Origin: a virus
Virus record (IMG/VR): IMGVR_UViG_3300032322_001765
Coordinates: 1 to 64,000 of that record
Strand: one strand, 5' to 3'
Length of the DNA: 64,000 nucleotides
Position numbers and translations under genes: made by a program. The notes under the pieces are model-generated. The model made no database searches, had not been told where the DNA came from, and saw only the letters and a list, made by a program, of their open reading frames with translations. This document shows positions 60,662 to 62,826 of this stretch, in pieces (the first letter of the stretch is position 1; every line of letters starts with the position of its first letter).

Positions 60662-61222
60662 ATGCCAAGTCCACAAAAAGCAAAAGGTTCAAGTTTTGAA
60701 AGAGAAATTGCGAAATTTCTTTCAGAATTATACGGAGAAAGTTTTATACGTGCCCCAGGGTCCGGAGCGTATGTGGGCGGTACAAATCAAAGCAGGAAGC
60801 AATTTTTACACGAAGGTCAAATTCGCAGTTTTAAGGGAGACATTGTTCCAGGACAAAGTTTTTCTAAATTTAATGCGGAGTGTAAGAGTTATAAAGACTT
60901 CCCATTTCACTTATTACTTACGGGTGAGAACAAACAATTTGACCAATGGATAGCACAAATGATAGAAGTATCAGACCAAGATGATTTTAATATTCTTTTT
61001 ATGAAGTTTAATCGCATTGGTAAGTTCGTAGCAGTACAACCAAAATTTACATGGGTGTTAGATAATTATACTTTTTATTCAAGTAAAACGGTTGGTGATT
61101 GGATACTTACAGAATTTGATAGCTTTTTCAAAAACAACAAAGACTTAGTTAAAAATTACTCAGGCTCAATAGACACAACGTCACAATCTCAAAATTTAAC
61201 GAATTTACAATTAGCCGACTGA
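60662..61222 (+). CDS. PDDEXK-like nuclease, 186 aa
   Basis: FEREIAKFLSELYGE, then FKGDIVPG and FNAECKSYKDF: a Glu, an Asp and an E.K pair in the order of the PDDEXK nuclease core (Holliday-junction resolvases and RecB-type nucleases). A Gly-rich loop, APGSGAYVGGTN, precedes the Asp. It follows recombination genes, so it may resolve or trim DNA branches. Its last codons overlap the first stem of the structured RNA element. Confidence 0.68.
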   Translation: MPSPQKAKGSSFEREIAKFLSELYGESFIRAPGSGAYVGGTNQSRKQFLHEGQIRSFKGDIVPGQSFSKFNAECKSYKDFPFHLLLTGENKQFDQWIAQMIEVSDQDDFNILFMKFNRIGKFVAVQPKFTWVLDNYTFYSSKTVGDWILTEFDSFFKNNKDLVKNYSGSIDTTSQSQNLTNLQLAD

Positions 61223-61680
61223 GTTGTCAGTCCTCCTTGAGGAAGTACAGGTAGTGCTGTGCCGACGGATCTGGAGTATACATGTCAGTAATGACATGGA
61301 ATGTCGAGAGGGCAATCTTTGTTAGGGAACCCTCAATGAGTTTGTATCTTACTCTGTTTTGCGGATACAAAACATGCGTTGCCGAAGAGCTAAATGAAAA
61401 AATAAGTTTAGTAGCTTCACTACAGTCCCATTATACTTACAGGGCAACCGACGGCGTATAGCAACTAAAAGTGTTAGCTATTCGGGGAATAAACAGCAAG
61501 TGGATGACGGGCATGGCAAGTTTCCAATTGGTAGTGCTGAATAGCACTACCATGGCTTCAAAGCGGCAATATATAAGCCCTAAAGAAAAGTTTTCGAAAG
61601 TTATAACAGTCAATAAAATTCCGAACAATGCGAACGTAGTGAGCATGTGAAGGAATTAGATGAACGAAGTTCATCTTTTA
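61217..61680 (+). ncRNA. Candidate large structured RNA, about 460 nt
   Basis: No frame longer than a few dozen codons is convincing here. Perfect stems: GACTGA/TCAGTC (61217-61232), CATGTCA/TGACATG with a GTAA loop (61281-61298), TTTGTATC/GATACAAA (61341-61371), a long-range GTTGCC/GGCAAC (61378-61448), ATAGCAAC/GTTAGCTAT with one bulge (61458-61481), nine base pairs at 61530-61551 with a GAAT loop, and AATTCC/GGAATT (61617-61657). It ends in GATGAAC-GAA-GTTCATC plus TTTT. A TACAAT box (61206-61211) lies just ahead of the first stem. Large ornate phage RNAs such as GOLLD and ROOL are known; whether this belongs to them cannot be told by eye. Confidence 0.72.
61659..61680 (+). terminator. Rho-independent terminator of the RNA element
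   Basis: Hairpin GATGAAC-GAA-GTTCATC followed by TTTTA. It closes the RNA element before the converging minus-strand gene. Confidence 0.75.
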
Positions 61681-61734: not shown

Positions 61735-61971
61735 TTAGAAGAAAGGTAACTTTGTGTTCTTTGTTGTTTCTAAGTTTTCTTCTATTAAATTGCCGATGGC
61801 TTGTCTTTCCTTAAATGACATATTGAGTATGTCTATATAAGATGCCCCACCCCTCATATACCATGCCATTTTTAATGCATTGGCTTTAATGGCTTCACAA
61901 TCTTTTTCCATATCGTCTATTAACTTCTGAACCTCATCGGGGGCTAGGGCCAGAAGTCTTAGACGAAAAAA
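61735..61971 (-). CDS. 51: gp51-like extension reached by -1 frameshift
   Basis: An open frame of 78 codons lies in the -1 frame just past the gp26-like stop, with no start codon before Met at 61911. It includes APDEVQKLIDDMEKDCEAIK and WYMRGGASYIDILNMSFKER, and ends TKLPFF. The frame is joined to the upstream gene at the slippery site 61965-61971 (T TTT TTC), giving a fusion of about 349 residues (273 + 76). This is the same arrangement as the tail-assembly chaperone pair G/GT of lambda-like phages and lies beside the tape measure gene. Internal start at 61911 (58 aa) is an alternative. Name gp51 rests on position and order beside gp26 in T4-like phages. Confidence 0.65.
   Translation of the reverse strand, partial: FFRLRLLALAPDEVQKLIDDMEKDCEAIKANALKMAWYMRGGASYIDILNMSFKERQAIGNLIEENLETTKNTKLPFF
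61923..61971 (-). promoter_or_regulatory. Programmed -1 frameshift site with stem-loop
   Basis: On the minus strand, T TTT TTC in frame with the gp26-like gene, seven bases (GTCTAAG), then a seven-base-pair stem ACTTCTG / CAGAAGT around a 21-base loop. The zero-frame TAA lies within the seven-base spacer. Confidence 0.68.
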
Positions 61972-62783
61972 TCAGATATGTTTAGATCAAATGGTTGTTC
62001 GTAATTGTGGCTACAACTTGGACAAGTAAATGCTAAAGGTTTAGCTTCAGTTGTTTTTCTTAGATTAATACTTTGGTCTTTGATGTTATCATATTCTTTC
62101 TTTGGTATATTTTCTAAGAACTCTTTTATGTACTCTTTTTCAATGACTACGCTTTCAGGAGTTTTGACATATTCTACAATTTCTAATATCAATTCTGTTG
62201 CAATCTCATTCATTTCTTTTACCAACTCAGACATTTTATTTTCTTTGTCAGCACCTTCTTCCATTTTTGATATTATTCCATATGCTCTTTGTAAGTCAAA
62301 TTGTTTTTGACTGTTCTCATTTACTTTTGTATATGTCAATGGTTTAAATTTTATTTGCACATCGTTGTACACTGGATAAAGTTTGTTATAATCCCCTGGA
62401 CTGAATTCATTAAGCATTCCAGTTAAATTTACATCGTATTTGGCGTCGTGATTGCAATTTGGGCATACAGTTAAAATTTCCATAGTAGACCCATTAGTTG
62501 CAATTTTAATTGCTAGAAGAATAGGATCTAAATCAATTTGTAGTAATTGCCATGGGTCTTTGATATTTGGTGCGCAACTGTGAATAATTTCAACTACTGC
62601 TTGGCCATTAAAAAGTGCATCTGGTGTGCGTGTGGTAATTTCGTCTAATGCAGTCATGGGAAAAATTGGTATCTCCCCTGACTCCGGTAAATCAATGGCA
62701 TTTTCTTTATATCCTATGCCTTTGCTAGGTAATTTCAAATATAATGCAGGTTTACGAAAATAACTTTTTAGTGGGTTAGACAT
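61959..62783 (-). CDS. 26: Baseplate/tail assembly protein, gp26-like, 274 aa
   Basis: LPSKGIGYKENAIDLPESGE, IPIFPMTALDEITTRTPDAL and QVVEIIHSCAPNIKDPW-like segments match the T4-like baseplate hub/assembly family called gp26 in related phages. Two CxxC pairs (Cys107/110 in CPNCNHDAKYDV; Cys254/257 in CPSCSHNYEQPFDL) suggest a zinc ribbon. The start at 62783 (MSNPLKSYFRKP) has GGAGAAA upstream. It ends with a slippery site leading into the gp51-like frame. Late promoter TATAAATA at 62828-62835. Confidence 0.78.
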   Translation of the reverse strand: MSNPLKSYFRKPALYLKLPSKGIGYKENAIDLPESGEIPIFPMTALDEITTRTPDALFNGQAVVEIIHSCAPNIKDPWQLLQIDLDPILLAIKIATNGSTMEILTVCPNCNHDAKYDVNLTGMLNEFSPGDYNKLYPVYNDVQIKFKPLTYTKVNENSQKQFDLQRAYGIISKMEEGADKENKMSELVKEMNEIATELILEIVEYVKTPESVVIEKEYIKEFLENIPKKEYDNIKDQSINLRKTTEAKPLAFTCPSCSHNYEQPFDLNISDFFV

Positions 62784-62797
62784 TTTTTCTCCAAAAT

Positions 62798-62826
62798 TTG
62801 ACAGTAATTTTTCAACTAAATACAAG
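62798..62826 (+). promoter_or_regulatory. Possible sigma70 promoter of the tape-measure-like gene
   Basis: TTGACA-N17-TACAAG on the plus strand; strong -35, imperfect -10. The ATG lies 20 bases on. Confidence 0.4.

Follow-up and report, generated by a model that had tools for sequence, protein, structure and literature searches.

Between the gene for a RusA-like nuclease and the convergent 58-aa gene downstream of it, a T4-like phage has some 460 bases that a preliminary description, working from the letters alone, had proposed to lack a credible gene and to form a large structured noncoding RNA, which raises the question of whether such an RNA exists and, if so, what it might do. The window analysed here is a stretch of 64,000 nucleotides, positions 1-64,000 of a virus record of 220,867 bases (IMGVR_UViG_3300032322_001765), and the genes near the segment are T4-like, namely those for an SbcC/gp46-like nuclease subunit, the RusA-like nuclease and a baseplate hub. 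We find that a structured noncoding RNA, about 460 nt long, is encoded at 61217-61676 on the plus strand (Table 1), and there is hardly any doubt that this structured RNA is a functional one. As proposed, no credible gene lies between the nuclease stop codon (61220-61222) and the 58-aa gene. The RNA does not, however, start in intergenic sequence, as had been thought, its first hairpin beginning within the last two codons of the nuclease gene; the TACAAT box suggested as its start lies inside the same coding end and is no conserved promoter.

The homologues described below were also checked for a conserved protein frame, and none was found: their lengths fall in all three residues modulo 3, and in each of the six frames the median longest open run is between 38 and 50 aa, an outcome that favours an RNA. 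Folded as a single sequence, the segment reaches -134.2 kcal/mol (z -3.1), a value that none of 100 shuffles equalled; for the reverse strand z is -3.3, so that single-sequence energy leaves the strand undecided. That the RNA strand is plus follows from the G-U variants, which are as expected, from the U run of the terminator-like hairpin, which lies on that strand, and from the co-oriented genes that precede the RNA. The Rfam/Infernal search recommended at the outset, which included GOLLD, ROOL, group I introns and tmRNA, gave no covariance-model match in the window: no family reached its gathering score anywhere in it, the models for GOLLD, ROOL, OLE, tmRNA, group I/II introns, RNase P, 6S and HEARO all went unmatched, and the segment itself returned only chance matches (E 3-10) against 4227 Rfam families at E <= 10. 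ARAGORN reported 0 tRNA or tmRNA genes in the window, and blastn of the segment against named phages gave chance matches only, of about 50 bases.

A scan of IMG/VR with the nuclease yielded 80 loci, and in 24 distinct loci among them the segment is conserved downstream of the nuclease, with nhmmer E values of 1e-28 to 1e-116 when the identical L001 is set aside. Independently, a protein-blind DNA-pattern scan on the core motif of the RNA yielded at least 120 loci, all of which carry the homologous RNA at E 1e-59 or better and, where the contig reaches, have the co-oriented nuclease before the RNA and/or, after it, the 58-aa and hub genes on the opposite strand. These scans show that the RNA, which we call type A, is kept at one locus in a large and diverse clade of T4-like freshwater phages, with more than 100 relatives. 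Among the matches listed, 98 distinct full-length sequences entered the type-A alignment, 80 of them below 95% identity, with a mean pairwise identity of 56%. In PA5oct, SCTP-2 and Phosso, the named relatives by nuclease, a coding gene adjoins the nuclease and no such RNA was recognised.

Table 1 Features of the RNA locus, in window positions
Feature	Position	Strand	Evidence or remark
Upstream gene, RusA-like / PDDEXK_15 nuclease	60662-61222	+	phrog_244 E 1e-20; PF24608 E 2e-25
Type-A RNA, whole	61217-61676	+	First hairpin (overlaps nuclease stop codon) to terminator-like hairpin; nhmmer homologues over entire length at 24 distinct loci; at least 120 pattern-scan loci; covariation
5' module common to type B (H0, H1 and H2)		+	A-to-B match E 3e-11
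H0, 5' hairpin GACUGA/UCAGUC	61217-61232	+	6/6 pairs with double-sided changes; 92% paired
H1, CUCC/GGAG	61233-61236/61273-61276	+	100% paired
H2, enclosed by H1	61245-61250/61257-61262	+	6/6 pairs covary
H3, 7-bp hairpin, GUAA loop in window	61281-61298	+	Two parts 89% and 55% paired
Core junction, whole	61302-61453	+	Closing helix 61302-61306 x 61449-61453, H4-H7
H4, core junction	61308-61312/61330-61334	+	
H5, core junction	61336-61348/61364-61375	+	99% paired; 10/11 pairs covary
H6, core junction, GUUGCC/GGCAAC	61378-61383/61443-61448	+	
H7, core junction	61384-61394/61407-61418	+	
PK1, H5 loop CUGUUU x AAACAG	61354-61359 x 61491-61496	+	97% paired
PK2, UCCC x GGGA	61426-61429 x 61485-61488	+	100% paired; 61426 x 61488 E 0.00
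H9, long hairpin	61455-61484	+	11/11 pairs with double-sided changes
Twin motif, copy 1, GCAUGGCAA	61511-61519	+	61511 covaries by identity with 61563
H10, 9-bp hairpin GGUAGUGCU/AGCACUACC, between twin motifs	61530-61538/61543-61551	+	Hardly varies, most of its pairs being invariant; 100% paired
Twin motif, copy 2, GCGGCAA	61563-61569	+	Identity covariation with copy 1
H11, small hairpin GCGAAC-GUA-GUGAGC	61630-61644	+	Tandem G-A mismatches; 96% paired; 61634 x 61640 E 0.00
H12, terminator-like 8-bp hairpin, then UUUUA	61658-61665/61669-61676	+	99% paired; three pairs E <= 0.1
58-aa gene, downstream, convergent, kept beside RNA	61735-61911	-	tblastn in most loci; product without Pfam match
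Baseplate hub gene, convergent	61959-62825	-	phrog_150 E 4e-20

Covariation across the homologues was positive both when the fold was counted and in a phylogeny-aware test. On a standard-tool alignment of 42 sequences, including that of the window, the 98 stated pairs make 3978 cells, and the stated fold with its two pseudoknots leaves 92.4% of these paired against 76.7% in shuffles; 687 cells have changed on both sides (214 +/- 14 in shuffles), and double-sided change is seen in 75 of the 98 pairs. Controls slid by 1-3 columns paired at 34-41%, a comparison that leans toward the stated structure as it is drawn from the same sequences, whereas the phylogeny-aware test does not. The latter is a self-written, R-scape-like G-test with APC on a FastTree phylogeny, its null being 50 alignments in which the substitutions of each branch are replayed at random columns. 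Against this null more than 20 Watson-Crick pairs stand at E <= 0.05, among them pairs of both pseudoknots, which are invisible to nested folding; for PK1, 45 cells show double-sided changes and three pairs reach E <= 0.04. None of the 50 null alignments reached 23 of the pairs, 19 of which pair by Watson-Crick or G-U rules; the other four comprise three one-column neighbours in 61337-61338 x 61373-61374 and a single non-pairing identity couple, 61511 x 61563, taken up below. RNAalifold gave -177 kcal/mol on the 98 distinct type-A sequences and, on the 42-sequence alignment, recovered most helices unaided, together with the helix that closes the core junction.

The stems that first drew attention to the segment are all present, namely the 9-bp hairpin (H10), the 8-bp hairpin with its T tract at the end (H12), the 7-bp stem with a GNRA-type GTAA loop (H3) and the long-range GTTGCC/GGCAAC pair (H6). 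With covariation found, a conserved frame absent and no Rfam match, the proposal that this T4-like phage has a large noncoding RNA with structure is supported. The data show a compact RNA that comprises a multi-helix junction and two pseudoknots and closes with a terminator-like hairpin, and thus a large covarying structure with pseudoknots in phages, as in GOLLD and ROOL. H3 is highly variable in length and sequence among homologues, and the alignment is gap-rich there. H11 may be a protein-binding or kink-turn-like element; a similar form, GAGCG-AGCGAA, recurs in other RNA types.

In more distant phages other RNAs, here named B, C, D and E, occupy the same spot. A pattern scan for B and C found at least 59 loci of each, and each of these types covaries when taken alone. 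Profile comparison revealed that A and B have their 5' 70 nt in common (E 3e-11) and B and C their 3' 200 nt (E 1e-34), from which it follows that a related 3' part can carry one 5' module or another; the direct link between A and C is weak and confined to the terminator region. The front of type C is the 141-nt Polynucleobacter-1 motif (RF01718), with scores of 118 bits in L046 and 120 bits in L056, against a gathering cut-off of 37 bits, and at the same syntenic locus. Type C and the bacterial copies described below exceed this cut-off, whereas the window RNA has no match to RF01718 even at E <= 10; it is homologous, through type B, to the longer RNA whose 5' end is RF01718 and which sits in the same gene neighbourhood. 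Together, these comparisons show a modular superfamily of variable 5' modules and a related 3' part, which includes Polynucleobacter-1. The latter is merely the front third of a longer RNA, the Rfam model ending there, and is linked to the window RNA via B and C. Types A and B fall outside Rfam, and of type C the first third alone was known; in the open-licence literature we found no longer RNA described. In the table of Weinberg et al. 2010 (PMC2864571), whose columns are given here as we interpret them, Polynucleobacter-1 is marked 'y' as an RNA, 'y' as cis-regulatory and '?' as a riboswitch, and its sources are Burkholderiales and fresh water.

Full-length relatives also occur in a few bacterial genomes. 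Among 399 genomes sampled from the order to which L365 belongs, 3 contain an RF01718 match that exceeds the cut-off, as do 3 of 201 from the order of L346, the orders being inferred from the records (Alcaligenaceae, hence Burkholderiales, and Methylococcaceae, hence Methylococcales). A pattern scan of genome contigs gave mostly chance matches, with 3 of 117 loci real. The copies in L445-L448 and L450 are about 430-500 nt long and follow the plan seen in phages, with an RF01718-like start, a core, a twin-flanked hairpin and a terminator; some bacterial contigs come from MAGs, so that phage contamination is possible for individual copies. Two copies lie beside tyrosine recombinases (L452, 490-12390, and L453, 7730-18947; genomes G373 and G046). 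In L453 there is also a type I Zorya system (ZorA-D); in L452, a cytosine methyltransferase and PDC-M33A/B, a candidate defence pair. In Burkholderiales-type copies a small divergent phrog_31551 gene adjoins the RNA (L452 9184-9621, minus strand; L453 9873-10340, plus strand), and a different protein family (MRINELL...) holds its place in those of Methylococcales type. We also considered whether the proteins beside the bacterial copies that begin with MRFYEF or MRINEL bear capsid-targeting signals and so mark satellites, but dropped the idea: among 179 ORFs of the window phage only four have an N-terminus of loose similarity, and none is a homologue.

The genes around the RNA bear on how it is transcribed. 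Directly upstream of it lies the PDDEXK_15/RusA-like nuclease in 133 of the 135 type-A loci with enough upstream sequence; for types B and C this nuclease or a SegE-like GIY-YIG nuclease (PF19835, E 2e-33), which takes its place in some loci, does so in 48 of 74 and 51 of 62 loci, respectively. Extra genes intervene between nuclease and RNA in some B and C loci, and at others no nuclease adjoins the RNA. The change of upstream gene may stem from nucleases of the homing type that settled next to a locus that is itself conserved. Throughout the homologue loci the RNA starts at most about 20 nt from the stop codon of whichever coding gene precedes it, and the late-promoter motif TATAAATA is absent upstream in 290 of 291 homologues and present in one. 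The missing conserved promoter alone suggests that the RNA arises by read-through from the upstream gene and not from an independent start at the TACAAT box. On the other side there is no constant co-oriented gene of the kind that a cis-regulatory element precedes, the downstream gene being convergent. Insertions of about 600-750 bp separate the RNA from the 58-aa gene in L109, L111, L129, L132, L138, L146, L185, L197 and L200, and the downstream neighbour is therefore not fixed. Examples of the SegE-like nuclease directly upstream of the RNA are found at L214 1489-1965 and L277 7831-8259; its best PHROG, phrog_447, bears the name 'NAD synthetase', which looks like a misannotation. L066, L074, L075 and L076 have the nuclease without a detectable type A-E RNA, so that nuclease and RNA are separable.

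The identity couple noted above belongs to a pair of short motifs flanking the 3' hairpin. Type A has copies of the form NCAUGGCAN and NCGGCAN, in which the first N matches between copies: positions 61511/61563 read GG in 45, UU in 15, CC in 14 and AA in 2 of 80 sequences, with six same-branch changes. In types B and C the hairpin is flanked by ACUC-NNAUNAN and AAUCU-NNAUNAN, and the variable positions are again equal in both copies (GG31/AA17, GG35/AA14 and UU24/AA23/GG2 in type C; AA39/GG19 and GG40/AA20 in type B), with identity covariation at every one of them (E 0.00-0.07). Of 127 RNAs belonging to types B-E, 120 have identical 7-mers, a count for which the most similar pair was taken wherever there was more than one candidate, the identity-covariation and branch tests being unbiased in this respect. 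On the trees of A, B and C, the same change befell both copies on 41 branches and one copy on 11, while random column pairs of like variability averaged 0.05-0.13 joint changes. The bacterial twins differ entirely and match all the same (AACAAAA, AGCGAAA, GGCGAAA, AGAUGAA and ACUUAAA, each twice). The two 7-8-nt copies are thus shown to change jointly, in every type, and to arrive at one new sequence. Inside the RNA the motif has no complementary partner, and no third column there tracks it significantly. A search of the flanks, about 1.06 Mb, for an external partner found none, with no enrichment of the motif or its reverse complement (p 0.32 and 0.81), and in the window phage the 9-mer GCATGGCAA is found twice and its reverse complement never. 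A reading of the twins as a target-site duplication is contradicted by the repeated joint changes.

Large structured phage RNAs are few; we know of no established function for GOLLD or ROOL, nor, to our knowledge, has a twin identity motif been described for ROOL. OLE occurs mainly in extremophilic bacteria. GOLLD is a large, pseudoknotted RNA of phages and prophages with a conserved 3' and a variable 5' part (PMC12286853); the window RNA is likewise large, pseudoknotted and phage-borne, and its superfamily likewise keeps the 3' part and varies the 5' part, but it has about half the length of GOLLD, no covariance-model match and no nearby tRNA genes. It shares large size, phage location and several pseudoknots with ROOL, which occurs in phages and prophages and is not known to have a protein partner (PMC12286853), but is shorter and again matches no covariance model. 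OLE is a large bacterial RNA in which two chains meet in a conserved symmetric A-A contact (PMC12286853); the window RNA does not match it and has a different gene context. Judged by sequence, the relative of the window RNA is Polynucleobacter-1, reached via the intermediate types, and GOLLD and ROOL are fair analogues.

As to function, a cis-acting element, be it a riboswitch or 3'-UTR element on the nuclease mRNA or a 5' leader, would sit well with an RNA that starts at the upstream gene's stop codon, and Polynucleobacter-1 figures in Weinberg et al. as a possible cis-regulator (PMC2864571). The next gene, however, is convergent, which leaves no 5' leader, the bacterial copies have a divergent neighbour, and the RNA is far larger than usual leaders. 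Upstream genes vary between and within types, with others intervening, and this variation, the lack of a common promoter and the convergent downstream gene argue against control of one neighbouring gene. The tabulated cis-regulatory role of Polynucleobacter-1 is likewise unlikely, at least as a 5' leader in phages, because RF01718 is the front third of a longer RNA with a convergent downstream neighbour. We accordingly regard a cis-acting element as quite improbable, and the RNA probably acts in trans. The two small nucleases that directly precede most copies in types A, B and C might be thought to use it as an omega-RNA-like guide, but they are of unrelated folds, PDDEXK_15 and SegE GIY-YIG, that would need one and the same RNA; each of the two partners, RNA and nuclease, is found without the other, no such nuclease gene lies beside the bacterial copies examined, and no described guide RNA in Rfam matches, all of which makes a guide very improbable. 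The lowest probability of all goes to a DNA-level recombination or replication signal, or to chance stems. Direct repeats around a hairpin do resemble target-site duplications, and in two islands bacterial copies lie beside tyrosine recombinases; the compensatory changes, however, extend across helices and include G-U pairs, and the twins keep co-changing at a fixed homologous place between conserved flanks, unlike inherited duplications.

The twin motif is most simply read as two contacts with one and the same outside partner, and we lean guardedly towards such binding. Its main rival is a symmetric self-contact of the copies, which could yield an equal identity signal: the RNA would then be an ornate one of the GOLLD/ROOL/OLE kind, mainly homo-oligomerising, with the twins as symmetric contacts within or between copies. 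Size class, pseudoknots and location in phages and islands are alike, the conserved 3' and exchangeable 5' parts recall GOLLD, and the conserved symmetric A-A interface of OLE is a precedent for an identity-type constraint (PMC12286853). Identity covariation, too, fits symmetric pairing. Set against this are the occurrence of G, A, U and C at one twin position and strings like GGCGAAA and ACUUAAA, neither of which a simple homo-pair helix would favour; moreover, GOLLD and ROOL are often near tRNA islands, whereas the window holds no tRNA. We consider homo-oligomerisation unlikely, and on balance the best explanation overall appears to be a phage RNA that acts in trans and uses its twin motif to recognise a single partner outside itself. 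Such an RNA would be made when transcription reads through from the upstream operon's last gene, would stop at its own terminator and would then be released or used in trans; its rigid core would present the two identical motifs, and both would bind the same partner, perhaps a phage or host RNA reached by base pairing or a dimeric protein, which would probably be sequestered or scaffolded during infection. More tentatively, one may picture a double-headed device, in a new superfamily common to T4-like phages and bacterial islands, whose twin 7-mers bind one nucleic acid or dimeric protein and are re-programmed in lockstep as that partner changes.

The type-A RNA, its structure supported base pair by base pair, adds a family of large RNAs kept at one locus through a very diverse phage clade, and the orphan Rfam motif Polynucleobacter-1 is explained as a fragment of a superfamily RNA. 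The joint change of the twin 7-mers is an evolutionary fingerprint that makes a search for the partner testable, and the presence of relatives near defence genes in bacterial islands points to a possible role in phage-host or mobile-element conflict. Finally, Pseudomonas phage PA5oct (NC_071039) has, near its RusA-like gene, a stretch of about 1.5 kb (L439 978-2490) with only the tiny annotated ORFs gp338-gp341, no Rfam match and several perfect hairpins, for example CATCTACCCC-TTTT-CGGGGTAGATG, which may be another large noncoding RNA.
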